In this document: positions 43,893 through 52,685 of the stretch, in pieces
How the letters are laid out: the number at the start of each line of letters is the position of its first letter
How positions within the stretch are numbered: the first letter of the stretch is position 1
Made by a program: the position numbers and the translations under genes
Assembly: GCF_008933165.1 (NCBI RefSeq)
Contig: NZ_WBVQ01000002.1
Location: 643,569 to 707,568, forward strand
Direction: 5' to 3'
DNA length: 64,000 nucleotides
Source of the DNA: Phaeocystidibacter marisrubri
GTDB lineage: Bacteria > Bacteroidota > Bacteroidia > Flavobacteriales > Schleiferiaceae
The notes under the pieces: generated by a model
The model's input: the letters and a program-made list of their open reading frames with translations, nothing else
The model's database searches: none
Told to the model about the DNA's origin: nothing

Positions 43893-44579
43893 TTAGTTCC
43901 GCGCAGTACGATATTGTTGATCTCTTAAATATCTACTAACGTTATTAAGAAACTGTTTTACATACCTCGACACATATACCTTGATGTCAATAAGCTGTTC
44001 GAAAGTATATGACCTACCACACTCAGAAAATGATATGTTACCGTGGGCCAAGCTGTTACGTTGTTGCTTGACAATATGAAGTTGGCTTCCATCACCAGCT
44101 GTATGATGTACCCTCTTTGGAAATCCATACAAATCACAGAACTCGTTGATCTTACGAGAATCTATATTCCCAGATATACCAGAAGAAGTGTACTCAAGAT
44201 TGAAAACTTCATTCTCCAAGTTCCTCAGAGTTTCGACAATGATAGAGTTCGCCATATCCCGAAATTTATTGTGCTCTTCTTTTATCCAAATCAATCGAAT
44301 CTCATCTATCACCTCTCTATATGTCAGTCTTTCGTTTGAAACATGGTCATGAACATGGGTTATTGCCAGCCTTACAGAAGATTCAACCAAATTGTAGATT
44401 AATAGAAAGCAATTAGCCTTGAGCACCTTTTGAAGAGTGGGGTCAGGAGTTTTATATTTATGAGTTTGCTTGTTAGGGAAATAGACCTGTGCATCATCCT
44501 CCAAGAATGCCTCAAGGTGCTTGAAATACACATCAATCTCATCCACCCTTTTCTCAAACTCTTGAATTACTGCATTCAT
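43893..44579 (-). CDS. HEPN-domain nuclease, MAE_28990/MAE_18760 type
   Basis: A 228-residue helical protein. The HEPN active-site motif R-x4-H is present as Arg174-Asn-Ser-Leu-Ala-His179 in QQRNSLAHGNISFSECG; the helix NCFLLIYNLVESSVRLAI at about 57 is also typical of the MAE_28990/MAE_18760-like HEPN group. HEPN proteins of defence and toxin systems cut RNA. Its start overlaps the stop of the DUF262 gene as ATGA, so the two are made as a unit. This pairing is a recalled association in bacterial islands, and an abortive-infection role is likely but not shown. Confidence 0.85.
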   Translation of the reverse strand: MNAVIQEFEKRVDEIDVYFKHLEAFLEDDAQVYFPNKQTHKYKTPDPTLQKVLKANCFLLIYNLVESSVRLAITHVHDHVSNERLTYREVIDEIRLIWIKEEHNKFRDMANSIIVETLRNLENEVFNLEYTSSGISGNIDSRKINEFCDLYGFPKRVHHTAGDGSQLHIVKQQRNSLAHGNISFSECGRSYTFEQLIDIKVYVSRYVKQFLNNVSRYLRDQQYRTARN

Positions 44580-45622
44580 TGAGAAAGCAGTTTATCTCTG
44601 ACGTACTCGATTCTAGCAATAACGTTAGACTGAACATTGTGACTTCCGCCGGTAGTTAGTCCAACAAACTCATCATTTTCTATGAATGACATGTCAATCT
44701 GACTATTGATCAGATCCGGCTTCTCCCTTAAAGCCAAGTTGATTCCAACCGAAAGAGCCTCAAATCGAACACGAGGAGTTTTCTTAGAACCTTCCTTTTT
44801 GAGAAACCCATGATCAAGAAACTTGTCAACGAACTCAAGCATCCGTTCAAACTCACTTAACAACCTGTCTTTCTCCAGTTTTTTATTTGAATCATCTGTA
44901 TAGTCATTGAGAAAGTCGTTTACACCACTTTTAAAGACTCTATATCTATCTGAAAAAGCAAAGAATCGAATGATGAGTTCTTCATCCTCACCTCGTGAAA
45001 GCATGGTTTCTGTAAATTCCGTATGCCGCTTGTAAAGAGGATGGGTAGCACACTTGTTCTTTACAAATTGTATAAACTTTCCGCCGAAAATGCCTTGTCG
45101 CTTCTCCATGTCCTTTAGAATCATGCTACCAGTGTTGATTCGTTCGAACATCATAAACCTAATCTCATCATCGCTTTTCTCCGAAAGGGATATCATTCGA
45201 ATTGTTGAGTTCTTGAATCTTCTTTGTCTTGCAACAGTTAAGTCGTTAAAGCTAAACCCATTCAGCTTAGTCAAAACATCAAGATTCTTTATCACTAATC
45301 TGTTCTCTAAGAAGTTATTTATTGTCCTTAACCTTTGCGATCCGTCAACAACTTCTAATCTTCCATTATCAATGTCAGCCGTAAATATGTAGGGAATTGG
45401 AAGACCTAACAAAATTGACTCAATAAACTTGGCCTGTCTTTCTTGATCCCAAACAAATTTTCTCTGGTAGCTCGGTATAAAGATCTCGTTAGTGTCGTCT
45501 TGAAGTCCCGTTATGTACTTATGGTTTAGTAGTTCAAGTGTGAACTCTTTGACATCATAGTCAACGACCTTCTGTTTCTCAATAATTTGACCCTCAGCCG
45601 CTTCTCTGAATTTCTGATCCAT
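44576..45622 (-). CDS. DUF262-domain protein
   Basis: A 348-residue protein with the DUF262 (ParB/sulfiredoxin-like) fold: IPSYQRKFVWDQERQAKFIESILLGLPIPYIF at 49-80, then VVDGSQRLRTINNFL with the D-G-x-x-R motif (Asp93, Arg97 or Arg99) of the active site, and a helical C-terminal half without an HNH DUF1524 motif. Proteins with this fold act in phage-defence systems such as GmrSD, where the DUF262 part uses NTP. Here the nuclease function appears to be provided by the coupled HEPN protein instead of DUF1524. Codon use is AT-rich compared with the chromosome. First gene of the pair. Confidence 0.88.
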   Translation of the reverse strand: MDQKFREAAEGQIIEKQKVVDYDVKEFTLELLNHKYITGLQDDTNEIFIPSYQRKFVWDQERQAKFIESILLGLPIPYIFTADIDNGRLEVVDGSQRLRTINNFLENRLVIKNLDVLTKLNGFSFNDLTVARQRRFKNSTIRMISLSEKSDDEIRFMMFERINTGSMILKDMEKRQGIFGGKFIQFVKNKCATHPLYKRHTEFTETMLSRGEDEELIIRFFAFSDRYRVFKSGVNDFLNDYTDDSNKKLEKDRLLSEFERMLEFVDKFLDHGFLKKEGSKKTPRVRFEALSVGINLALREKPDLINSQIDMSFIENDEFVGLTTGGSHNVQSNVIARIEYVRDKLLSQ

Positions 45623-47957: not shown

Positions 47958-47982
47958 AAGGCGATTTATTCGCCTTATTTTA
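47958..47982 (+). terminator. hairpin before the methyltransferase gene
   Basis: AAGGCGA and TCGCCTT arms with a 5-nt loop, followed by ATTTTAT. It would insulate the methyltransferase gene from upstream transcription. Confidence 0.65.
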
Positions 47983-47990
47983 TATATTGC

Positions 47991-48020
47991 ACAGTGTAAC
48001 CTTGTATAACCTTGTGTAAG
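47991..48020 (+). promoter_or_regulatory. three in-phase 10-bp repeats before the methyltransferase start (probable operator)
   Basis: acaGTGTAAC, cttGTATAAC and cttGTGTAAG follow each other without gaps (consensus NNNGTRTAAS), so they lie on one face of the helix, 3 bp before the ATG and just after a TATATATTG promoter-like sequence. They are well placed to bind the helix-turn-helix fused to the methyltransferase and to limit its own expression. Confidence 0.6.
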
Positions 48021-48023
48021 GAT

Positions 48024-49079
48024 ATGAATGAATACCTCACCGTTAAAGAAGCCTCTGATTTTCTAGGTGTAAGCGCTGAAACTCTTCGCAGATGGGATAA
48101 CTCTGGTCGTTTTGTCAGCAAGCGTCATCCCATGAATAACTATCGAGTGTATGCTCGGGAAGAGCTTGAATCTCTTGCGTCGACACTGACTAACCCCAAT
48201 GTTGCCACCATTAAAATTGATTCACCTTTTTTTCAAACTGAGCTTGGCGAATTGTACAACGTTGATGCGATCCTATTTCTTAAATCGCTTGAGCCGCAAT
48301 CTGTCGATCTGATATTCGCAGACCCTCCATACAATATTAAAAAGGCCCAATGGGACTCTTTCAAGTCGCAACGTGAATATGTTGAATGGAGTATGACTTG
48401 GATTAAAGAAGCTGCCAGGGTTCTTAGGCCCACAGGCTCTTTGTATATATGTGGATTTTCAGAAATACTTGCTGATGTGAAATGGGCTGCCTCCCACCTA
48501 TTTGAAGGTTGTAAATGGCTCGTATGGTTCTACAGAAACAAGGCGAATTTATCAAATGACTGGGGACGATCGCACGAGAGCATTCTACACTTCAGAAAGT
48601 CTAAGAAGTTCACATTTAACGTCGACGAAGTCCGGATCCCGTATAATGACCACACATTAAAATACCCAAAGCGGGCCCAAGGTGAATCTTCCCAATATTC
48701 TAATGGAAAGAAGCACGAATGGGAGCCAAACCCCTTAGGCGCTAAACCAAAAGATGTACTCGAGATTCCGACTCTTTCAAATGGCACATGGGAACGTCAT
48801 AGTCATGAAACTCAGAAACCGGTAGAACTACTAAGTCGTATTATTCGATCATCTTCAAATCCTGGCGACCTTGTGATCGATCCATTTGGTGGATCTGGAA
48901 CTACTTACGCAGTGGCAGAAGCTTTTGACCGAAAATGGAAAGGCTCTGAACTCGAAAGCACCTATTGCGAACTAATTCAAGAGCGCTTATCTGACTTTCG
49001 ACACTTGAATCGAATCAAAGACGGGACTGATGCTCGAAAAGCAGCCTCGAGAAGGAGGTCTCTCCGAAATGCCGAATGA
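48024..49079 (+). CDS. DNA methyltransferase (beta class) fused to an N-terminal helix-turn-helix
   Basis: A 351-residue protein. Residues 1-50 form a MerR/excisionase-type helix-turn-helix (LTVKEASDFLGVSAETLRRWDNSGR ... YRVYAREEL). The methyltransferase part has motif IV DPPYNI at Asp100-Tyr103 and, far behind it, the SAM-binding motif I as DPFGGSGTT at 286-294, preceded by HETQKPVELL. This order marks the beta class, which methylates N6 of adenine or N4 of cytosine. The restriction gene faces it 2 bp away. I begin at the ATG; a TTG four codons earlier is less likely. The fused helix-turn-helix may act as a built-in controller on the repeats upstream. Confidence 0.88.
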   Translation: MNEYLTVKEASDFLGVSAETLRRWDNSGRFVSKRHPMNNYRVYAREELESLASTLTNPNVATIKIDSPFFQTELGELYNVDAILFLKSLEPQSVDLIFADPPYNIKKAQWDSFKSQREYVEWSMTWIKEAARVLRPTGSLYICGFSEILADVKWAASHLFEGCKWLVWFYRNKANLSNDWGRSHESILHFRKSKKFTFNVDEVRIPYNDHTLKYPKRAQGESSQYSNGKKHEWEPNPLGAKPKDVLEIPTLSNGTWERHSHETQKPVELLSRIIRSSSNPGDLVIDPFGGSGTTYAVAEAFDRKWKGSELESTYCELIQERLSDFRHLNRIKDGTDARKAASRRRSLRNAE

Positions 49080-49081
49080 CG

Positions 49082-49969
49082 TCACTTGAGAAGCCTGAAT
49101 AAGTCATCTAACAATAAATTGGAAACCTTTTTCATGTGTTGATTCCAAGGACGTCTCAGAGCGCTGGAAGGCGGATCCAAATAGTACACTCCTTCAAGTT
49201 GTGTGAGGAATTTAGAGTACACCATAAACTGCTTAGAAACAAGCGTATAGCTGACCTTGTTTACTCCTTTACGCTGCACATCATTGAGAAATATGCCTAT
49301 CACCTTTACAGGATGTTCAACGAATCTCTCAAGCAGCATTTTATCAATGAACATTTTACCCATTCTATCTTTAGAAGAAGTTTTGATGGAGACCACCACT
49401 TCATCAGGGTGTATAGTACTATTCGTAGAACGAACTGAAGAAGCCGAAGATATAATCGCATCGTTCTCACAGCTATATTCTTCACTCTTCGATGCACCAT
49501 AGGGAATTTTAAGTACCGTGTGGCTATTCGAAATCCTAACTTCATCAAATACACAACGCATCAATTCTTCAAATCGGTTGCCAACATGCTTCCGTGCAGC
49601 ATTTGGGTTGATAAGCAAATCCATCCCAACCCCTAGCGATTGCTGAATTGTATATAAAGTTCTGTTAACCACTTTATGATCGTGAGCAGTAAATGTTCCA
49701 ATTGTGCTTCGGTCTAATCTGTCTAGCGTGATTAGAAAATCTGAGAACAGAAGCTTGAACTCAGTCGGGTCTTGCTCAAATAGCGAGACATTCACAGGTC
49801 TAATGTAGGTCGTTGTATTTGTGACAACTTGTGTCCAAATTTCATAATTACCGTCGGCAATTCTACCGGATACGACATTGGGTAAATGTCCCAAGACTCG
49901 TACTGTTAGATCTGCAAAATCCTGCAAACTACCTTGCGGAGTCGTGAGCTGTTGATTGAGAGTGGGCAT
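49082..49969 (-). CDS. probable type II restriction endonuclease (PD-(D/E)xK-like)
   Basis: A 295-residue protein. A likely nuclease core is visible in the second half: Glu134/135 in GNRFEELMRCVF, Asp170 in SCENDAIIS and Ser-Ile-Lys196 in EVVVSIKTSSKDRMGK, compatible with a PD-(D/E)xK site where the second acidic residue is replaced. The rest (IGTFTAHDHKVVNRTLYTIQ) does not recall a named enzyme. Its convergent position, 2 bp from the end of a DNA methyltransferase, supports a restriction role. The recognition site is unknown. Full length and no internal stop, so probably functional. Confidence 0.72.
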   Translation of the reverse strand: MPTLNQQLTTPQGSLQDFADLTVRVLGHLPNVVSGRIADGNYEIWTQVVTNTTTYIRPVNVSLFEQDPTEFKLLFSDFLITLDRLDRSTIGTFTAHDHKVVNRTLYTIQQSLGVGMDLLINPNAARKHVGNRFEELMRCVFDEVRISNSHTVLKIPYGASKSEEYSCENDAIISSASSVRSTNSTIHPDEVVVSIKTSSKDRMGKMFIDKMLLERFVEHPVKVIGIFLNDVQRKGVNKVSYTLVSKQFMVYSKFLTQLEGVYYLDPPSSALRRPWNQHMKKVSNLLLDDLFRLLK

Positions 49970-51348: not shown

Positions 51349-52505
51349 TCATAACCCCTGCGAGTAATTCAAAAGCTCAGGGATAGCATTCTGATCCTCC
51401 TTAGGTGTGTAACGATCAGTAACTGAGATGCCATAAGGCCGAGCTTGATCACGTATAACGATGGTCGTAACTCCTTGACGAAACATATTCGTTTTCCCGG
51501 TGTCTTTAAGGCTACAAAACTGGTAGTAACTAGGTAGGTCCAGTTCTCTTTTCATATGAGCCCTTAGGTCTGAGACTTACTTTGGCGACAACTCTTGGGG
51601 CCCAAGCTTACAATTTCGAAGTGAGAAAAGATAGTGGCCTGCAACTACTCCCTTCGTGTGTTTTCTTAAAGCCTTTGCCAAGTCATCTGGTACCATCACG
51701 ACTTGATTTTTTCTATTCTTGGAATATTCCTCAGGAATGAAAAGCGTATGTAAGTCGAGGTTAAGATGCTTCACCTTTATGCTACAAAACTCCTTTCTTC
51801 GGACGAACGTGTAATATCTAGTCAGGCAAAGTGTCCGATAACCTGGATCTGCTCCAAATGCTTGAGTATATCAACTAGCACGGTTCGTGGAATAATCTTC
51901 CTTCTTTTAGTTGACTCAGGGAGTTTGGGTATGGCTTCGATCGGATCGGAAGGTAAATAGCGCTTCTACACCACCCACGTACAGATTCGATGGAAGAAGG
52001 ACAACTAGTTATTTCTGGTGCGGGCCGAACGCCCACGCTCTTTCATGATGTGAACTAAAAACTGATCAATTATTGGAAGGTCAGTCGAATAGCCCTTTGA
52101 CCAAGCCCTTTTAGTCCATACCATTTCTCAAAATTCTTTAGGTGTGAGGTTTAGGATCGGATAGTGTCCGCCCTAATACCTCCTTCCTCAGCAAGTTTCG
52201 CTTTCTCGCGCATAAACTCCTCGAAAGCCACTTTTAAAGGAACAAATGCTTAGTTCACTCTGGCTTTCAACAAAAGGATTCCAGCCTGCTGCCAATTTTA
52301 TAGTCAAATCCTTGCAAAGCTTGATACCTTCTTGCCTTCGCTTCTCGAGATTTCGAATGCGGTTGAATTTGTAGCAGACCTCTCGGAGTTGTCCTGTTTC
52401 TGGATGGCGCGCTTCGAATGAGATGTACCACGTGGACTTGCCTTCGTGAAGTTGTTCCGGAGTGAAGTCCACCATGGGTGTGATGGGAGAATAGCGGTCT
52501 TTCAT
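51349..52505 (-). pseudogene. broken tyrosine recombinase (integrase)
   Basis: Pieces of one integrase in the correct order but in changing frames. N-terminal arm-binding part (52188-52505: STWYISFEARHPETGQLREV, GIKLCKDLTIKLAAGWNPFV), then in another frame VAFEEFMREKAKLAEEG and IRADTIRS-stop-TSHLKNFEKW, IIDQFLVHIMKERGRSARTRNN-stop, then LPSDPIEAIPKL, CLTRYYTFVRRKEF and KVKHLNLDLHTLFIPEEYSK (to 51577), an in-frame TAA, and finally KDTGKTNMF ... ITVTDRYTPK-type C terminus with the catalytic Tyr (51349-51555). At least three frameshifts and several stops; it cannot make an active enzyme. It lies 60 bp from the tRNA. Confidence 0.88.
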
Positions 52506-52565
52506 ACCGATAAAAACTATCTACTCCTCGCAAAATTGTCTGGCTTAGTGCCGTTTAGAACAATA

Positions 52566-52607
52566 AAAAGCCCGAAAGGCCAGTGTTTACAGGCTTTTCG
52601 GGCTTTT
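52566..52607 (-). terminator. terminator of tRNA-fMet
   Basis: Stem AAAAGCCCGAAA with TTTCGGGCTTTT around a 20-nt loop that pairs partly, directly after the tRNA 3' end on the minus strand. It overlaps the attachment site, so the island brought or kept a terminator. Confidence 0.8.
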
Positions 52608-52612
52608 CCTAG

Positions 52613-52685
<73 letters not shown>

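Follow-up and report, generated by a model that had tools for sequence, protein, structure and literature searches.

We describe a convergent type II restriction-modification (R-M) system in which, to judge from sequence comparison, the methylase probably acts as an autorepressor by way of an N-terminal winged helix of the BldC/MerR type. The system lies in a 64-kb window, by which we mean the whole stretch of DNA that was analysed, and its methylase gene, M, is preceded by three adjoining 10-bp repeats that very probably form the site at which the helix-turn-helix (HTH) domain binds and represses the M promoter. The elements of the locus are the following.

47958-47976 (+): intrinsic-terminator-like hairpin with a 7 bp stem and a T-rich tail, 5' of the M promoter
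47991-48000 (+): repeat unit 1, ACAGTGTAAC, the weakest unit, below the 2-bit cut
48001-48010 (+): repeat unit 2, CTTGTATAAC, which passes the 2-bit cut
48011-48020 (+): repeat unit 3, CTTGTGTAAG, which passes the 2-bit cut and lies 3 nt from the ATG at 48024
48024-49079 (+): HTH-methyltransferase gene M, 351 aa; the family members align from this ATG
48033-48176 (+): N-terminal MerR/HTH_17/BldC-like winged helix, residues 4-51 (Pfam, predicted fold)
48303-48983 (+): N6_N4_Mtase catalytic domain, residues 94-320 (Pfam, nearest structures)
49082-49969 (-): gene R (295 aa) for a type II restriction endonuclease, converging on M, with 2 nt between the 3' ends

The methylase, its partner endonuclease and the upstream repeats

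The N-terminus of M matches the Pfam families MerR (E 1.5e-8) and HTH_17 (E 3.4e-7), and the protein also matches N6_N4_Mtase (E 4.8e-52). The residues DPPY (100-103) stand before DPFGGSGTT, which begins at residue 286; we take these to be the DPPY motif and motif I of the methylase, and their order is that of the beta class. The nearest solved methylases are M.MboIIA, M.RsrI and M.BceJIV, and the full-length model of M, which was of moderate quality (pLDDT 72.5), was used only for the methylase fold. By these features M is assigned to the beta class of N6/N4 methylases, with m6A or m4C as the predicted product. The convergent gene R, which an earlier note on this DNA had overlooked, matches the PADLOC model REase_II (PDLC03436, E 3.2e-26) and a solved endonuclease (PDB 6ekr, E 1.2e-8). 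Judged by homology, M and R are a type II R-M system, for which a shared target site and cleavage are predicted. The main proposals of the earlier note about the gene itself, a type II methylase with an N-terminal MerR-type HTH, are borne out by these matches and by the convergent R, and its view that a separate C protein is absent agrees with the lack of any Pfam HTH match in the five neighbouring ORFs tested. A profile search of the genome with the HTH returned one match, which was M.

The three repeats before the ATG had also been proposed earlier and were recovered at 47991-48020, with unit 1 keeping GTGTAA and missing the TTG. In the best 30 bp upstream of M, 15 of 20 positions are identical at a lag of 10. 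When the 60 bp preceding the ATG were put through 20,000 dinucleotide shuffles, 7 did as well, and nowhere else in the window does a 30-bp segment reach this value. Across the 3.35-Mb genome, the exact pattern TTGTRTAANNTTGTRTAA has a single occurrence, which is the array before M. Allowing up to two mismatches gave nine genomic matches, two of them in the M array, against 12 for a reversed control pattern, so that no second target of the HTH stands out, and further genomic targets were rejected on this count. An in-frame TTG at 48012 was considered as the start of M and dismissed, given that it lies within the repeats and that relatives begin at the ATG. The hairpin reported just upstream is present (arms AAGGCGATTTATTCGCCTT and ATTTTATATA); the region holds four terminator-like sites against 1.8 +/- 1.3 in shuffles, a count that makes it poor evidence for a terminator.

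Conservation of the repeats in the fused family

We assembled 25 HTH-fused methylases, namely that of the window, 17 relatives of 61-67% identity from a scan of genome contigs and seven of 62-66% identity from 296 genomes of the phylum; one locus with only the C-terminal part of M (L022) was kept outside the set. The relatives come from Bacteroidota, Ignavibacteriota, one assembly labelled Akkermansia and one unclassified bacterium. By the earlier note, fused homologues lacking repeats would speak against its reading, and none turned up in this family: all 25 have at least two units and 14 have three, the last unit ending 4-23 nt before the ATG. The unit consensus is [TG]GTTGTATAA at a pitch of 10 bp, with the G of TTG the most informative position, and the best two-unit scores range from 13.6 to 29.2 in the 25 rows, on which the matrix was trained. 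Summed autocorrelation over the 25 upstream regions gave z values of 14.5 at lag 10 and 7.8 at lag 20, the other lags from 5 to 19 lying at or below zero. With a cross-clade matrix built from 10 rows, the other 15 all beat 200 of 200 shuffles; in the reverse test nine of ten did so, and the tenth was equalled by one shuffle in 200.

As a cut we used 5.6, the top score among 246 other ORF upstream regions in the window and loci L002-L029. None of seven HTH-less methylase homologues scored above it (maximum -4.4); the starts of these genes and of some stand-alone HTH genes were picked by hand, and L021, at 36% identity, does not count as HTH-less kin. The two groups also differ in gene order. 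An R homologue takes the same convergent place in 25/25 fused loci, and in 24 of them the two genes share 4-45 bp at their 3' ends, which leaves a terminator no room between them. In all six HTH-less loci tested by homology, R lies downstream in tandem on the same strand; in L095 (Lactiplantibacillus) a same-strand hypothetical gene follows the HTH-less methylase. The HTH-less, tandem homologues without repeats form a natural contrast to the fused family. An operator in front of R was sought and rejected: 0 of 17 R upstream regions exceeded 5.6 (maximum 3.1), a sample that omits L012 and L008, where too little sequence was available, and includes the R of L022.

In a phylogenetic tree, the seven near HTH-less sequences cluster with a support of 90/100, under the starred level of the tool, and the tree shows two changes; the fused form may still have a single origin, and fusion may have been acquired in one step with convergence. 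Because the 25 fused rows are related, the association of fusion, convergence and repeats should be read as one evolutionary observation.

The sequence TAnnTTTG is the -7 promoter element of Bacteroidota. An exact copy lies within 5 nt of the array head in 12/25 rows (shuffles: mean 1.2, maximum 6), several of these 12 being close kin; with one mismatch allowed it is found in all 25, but shuffles then average 12.1. A protein bound to an array with this box beside its head would cover the transcription start. The earlier placing of the repeats over the presumed start fits the 12 rows with the box near the array head; in the window, where no exact box precedes M, the overlap with the transcription start is presumed.

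Fold of the N-terminal domain

The HTH domain was predicted at pLDDT 83. Its top Foldseek matches are the BldC structures 6amk and 6ama (E 8.4e-4, TM 0.76-0.80), and VIA-align gave a Z of 8.8 against BldC, with an rmsd of 2.3 over 54, followed by the first MerR entry at Z 7.8. A BldC profile matched the HTH at E 1.1e-6, and E-values better by five-fold and more went to MerR proteins. By these scores the predicted domain resembles BldC most in fold, and MerR proteins only slightly less. BldC is described as binding 9-bp direct repeats head to tail, with Arg30 reading a YpG step (PMC5859096). Since BldC binds direct repeats, it is a better model for the domain than classical MerR dimers on palindromes. 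With BldC residue numbering anchored on the L43M marker, BldC Arg30 and Trp31 (recognition) and Arg47 (wing) align with R23 (21/22 rows), W24 (22/22) and R41 (22/22), respectively, and TG is the repeat core. The BldC residues Gly44 (oligomer interface), His46 (minor groove) and Arg48 (wing) are not kept, Asn or Ser, Tyr, and aliphatic or aromatic residues standing in their places. Like the HTH of M, BldC is a small winged helix on direct repeats about one turn apart; it differs in being a free developmental regulator of 68 aa, with 9-bp repeats and a regulon, as PMC5859096 describes it. The HTH of M, by contrast, is fused to an enzyme, has repeats at a 10-bp pitch and has one exact target pattern in the genome.

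Comparison with known R-M regulators

Ecl18kI and EcoRII are cytosine-5 enzymes. Together with SsoII, likewise described as a cytosine-5 enzyme (PMC3978073), they are reported as methylases with built-in repressors whose N-terminal HTH acts on their own promoter (PMC12707154). According to the same source, the EcoRII methylase represses itself and leaves R unaffected, and for the Ecl18kI type it places the binding site between R and M promoters that overlap, so that R is touched directly (PMC12707154). M resembles these enzymes in having an N-terminal HTH, predicted to act on its own promoter, and probably in needing no separate C protein; unlike them, it is of the N6/N4 beta class, its wing is of the BldC/MerR type, its 10-bp direct repeats stand at the M promoter only, and its R is convergent. 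The catalytic parts of SsoII and M belong to different classes (cytosine-5 and N6_N4_Mtase).

Direct repeats have been described for two other R-M regulators. HsdC of Mollicutes acts on the repeats (GTGTTAN5)2 over the -10 box and start, TG being the critical core, and homologues of it occur as parts of type I operons or as fusions to type II methylases (PMC5282649); the pitch is 11 there and 10 before M. Judged by its description, HsdC is the closest parallel in logic, probably a convergent one. RptR is a small repressor of an R-M promoter with three direct repeats; it differs in being a homodimer without close structural homologues in the searches of its own paper, in its 9-bp repeats with the palindromic core TAGCTA, and in serving type I systems unfused (PMC12255303), whereas the HTH of M is fused. 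Both are described as protein classes other than that of the HTH of M (PMC5282649, PMC12255303). Classical C proteins likewise exert autogenous control of R-M systems, but from a separate gene and as activator plus repressor, in the account of PMC12707154. In the literature covered, which included few subscription papers, we found no account of an R-M methylase that bears a fused MerR/BldC-type domain and has such an operator. The M system combines known themes, methylases as repressors and control through direct repeats, with a BldC-type domain and an operator phased at 10 bp.

The HTH module outside the M family

The same HTH occurs elsewhere, at 40-59% identity to that of the window in the rows compared, with repeats before some of these genes and not before others. 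Where its partner is a C-5 cytosine methylase (two by Pfam, others by eye), the fusion is preceded by repeats above the 5.6 cut in 5/8 loci of Bacteroidota, in 3/3 taken from a pair of viral contigs and a single genome in the gammaproteobacterial draw, and in 1/3 of the Verrucomicrobiota draw, where another scored 5.5. Two further long HTH fusions of the gammaproteobacterial draw did not pass (L200 at -17.6, L215 at 4.3), nor did a long m5C-type fusion from Methylobacterium; both helicase fusions, from Rhodococcus and Polymorphobacter, did. A stand-alone HTH of about 57-79 aa precedes an AlwI-type system (RE_AlwI, 3.3e-63), HsdM or a YhcG-type nuclease, and 3/5 of those before R-M genes (L023, L026 and L027) exceed the cut. 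In the Omnitrophota draw 2/11 stand-alone genes pass, and among more distant relatives of the HTH 0/9. As pass rates fall outside it, the link between HTH and operator is strongest in the family of the window and weakens with distance.

By eye, the repeats of the m5C-fused Bacteroidota (L063-L066, L069-L071, L113) are framed by inverted arms, AACC...GGTT, and this frame stops at or near the start codon. The stand-alone HTH of Omnitrophota often precedes genes that by eye resemble serine recombinases or m5C methylases; in L185-L188 it stands before serine-recombinase-like genes with TTATAATGTT-type 10-bp repeats upstream, and the repeats of L186-L188 are of this related TTATAATGTT type. In view of the Omnitrophota rows, the control module may serve mobile elements too.

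The set of nine distant relatives comprises six of 17 loci from one search together with L099, L103 and L104; from the same search, L074 and L076 were scored as m5C-fused, and L073, L078, L081-L086 and L088 were left out for an unclear start, duplication or weak matches. Four of 16 plasmid records were looked at (H1, H2, H11, H13). Near copies were dropped (L067, a copy of L068, which was scored as L113; L024, a copy of L023), L054 is a copy of L052, and L071, L094, L100 and L101 are the same loci as L111, L105, L027 and L026, respectively.

The HTH of the window also matches the PADLOC model Mad1 (E 7.9e-13). Kinship with MADS was considered but not adopted, as the model likewise matches E. 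coli, B. subtilis and Caulobacter, whose genomes served as controls, and most loci drawn with it resemble classical MerR regulators by eye. Twenty-five such loci were fetched and 21 scored, with none above 5.6; the strong HTH rows among the 21 are L204 (the same place as L028), L200 and L215. Three loci of the gammaproteobacterial draw (L205, L208, L211) carry a small HTH_17-like type with a W-L/M-S-V motif, without these repeats, before genes that read as HsdM- or m5C-methylase-like; this type is possibly a second controller family.

A gene-blind search of the 296 genomes with the exact operator pattern gave 15 matches at 13 places in 12 genomes, and the reversed pattern gave five matches over the same genomes. 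Six of the 13 places directly precede HTH-methylase genes, the nearest match lying 4-32 nt from the start; five of these belong to the family of the window and one is m5C-fused. The remaining seven have A/T-only spacers and no HTH-methylase gene behind them. The exact pattern is strict, since 17 of the genomes carry the HTH and six were recovered. Viral contigs yielded 44 exact matches in 43 contigs, none with an HTH within 150 nt after it, and phage carriage as a vehicle gained no support from this search. Two viral contigs found by their HTH (L074, L076) bear repeat-like sites.

Proposed mechanism and alternative explanations

The direction of the repeats and the BldC-like fold argue for head-to-tail binding, and we consider it rather likely that the HTH forms a head-to-tail filament on the array. 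Upon entry into a new host, M would be made freely; as it accumulates, it would shut its own promoter. Since M and R meet or overlap tail to tail, unrepressed transcription of M should enter R antisense, and autorepression of M would relieve this, so that R would rise later. The repeats precede M and none of the 17 R upstream regions, so that the timing of restriction and modification suggested earlier could only be indirect. We advance timing of R through convergent transcription tentatively, as somewhat short of an even chance. A broader form of the proposal, more doubtful again, is that the BldC-like winged helix and its phased [TG]GTTGTATAA operator make up a portable cassette that unrelated defence genes have taken up (methylases of the beta class and of the m5C kind, a helicase fusion, and free-standing controllers for AlwI-type and type I systems), and that in the window a filament on the M promoter switches R on by stopping antisense transcription.

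The alternative that bears most on the timing of R is plain autorepression that keeps M low and leaves R unaffected, the tail-to-tail overlap being gene packing. The missing operator before R (0/17) favours it, as does the precedent of the self-repressing EcoRII methylase with its unaffected R (PMC12707154); the overlap of 3' ends in 24/25 loci, with no room for a terminator, speaks against it, and so do reports from other R-M systems that convergent promoters inhibit R or M by collision and antisense RNA (PMC12707154). We regard it as a serious possibility that nevertheless falls well below an even chance.

Two further alternatives dispute that the HTH is a repressor at all. One may postulate that it is an extra DNA-targeting domain of the methylase and that the repeats are a promoter or translation signal; the HTH is after all fused to an enzyme, and the repeats, which are AT-rich, coincide in part with the promoter and ribosome-binding region of M. 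This is quite improbable, however, given that L023, L026 and L027 have a free-standing HTH in front of R-M genes, again with these repeats, that the repeats are missing from the seven HTH-less homologues and the 246 other ORF upstream regions, and that the exact repeat pair occurs once in the genome. The HTH could instead activate the M promoter in MerR fashion by twisting the spacer, a reading suggested by its MerR-family fold and by the several MerR structures close behind BldC in Z. The repeats are direct and not palindromic, however, and across the family they extend from the -7-like box in the direction of the ATG instead of lying between promoter boxes; a short linker separates the HTH from the methylase domain, and if M depended on activation by its own product from the outset, protection would presumably be delayed. 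We consider activation improbable, and autorepression through the repeats remains our preferred reading.

Genomic setting and significance

In the same low-GC stretch, a GmrSD_N protein (PADLOC NsnA, E 3.2e-54) overlaps a HEPN_MAE_28990 protein at 43893-45622 (-), and by sequence the two are likely a second defence pair. Between 46300 and 47900, ahead of M, only short fragmentary ORFs are present, three of which were tested and had no Pfam match; these are apparently decayed genes. Beyond R, short minus-strand ORFs at 51349-52685 resemble pieces of a tyrosine recombinase by eye, with no Pfam match, and a tRNA-Met gene (52612-52685) adjoins them; the stretch is possibly what is left of an integration end.

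A standing question about R-M systems is what keeps the nuclease back until the host has been protected, and the M system offers a compact and testable answer to it. The predicted operator can be used to look for further modules of this kind. If the proposed reading is true, BldC-type regulators would have a second role, that of controlling phage-defence genes as a module.
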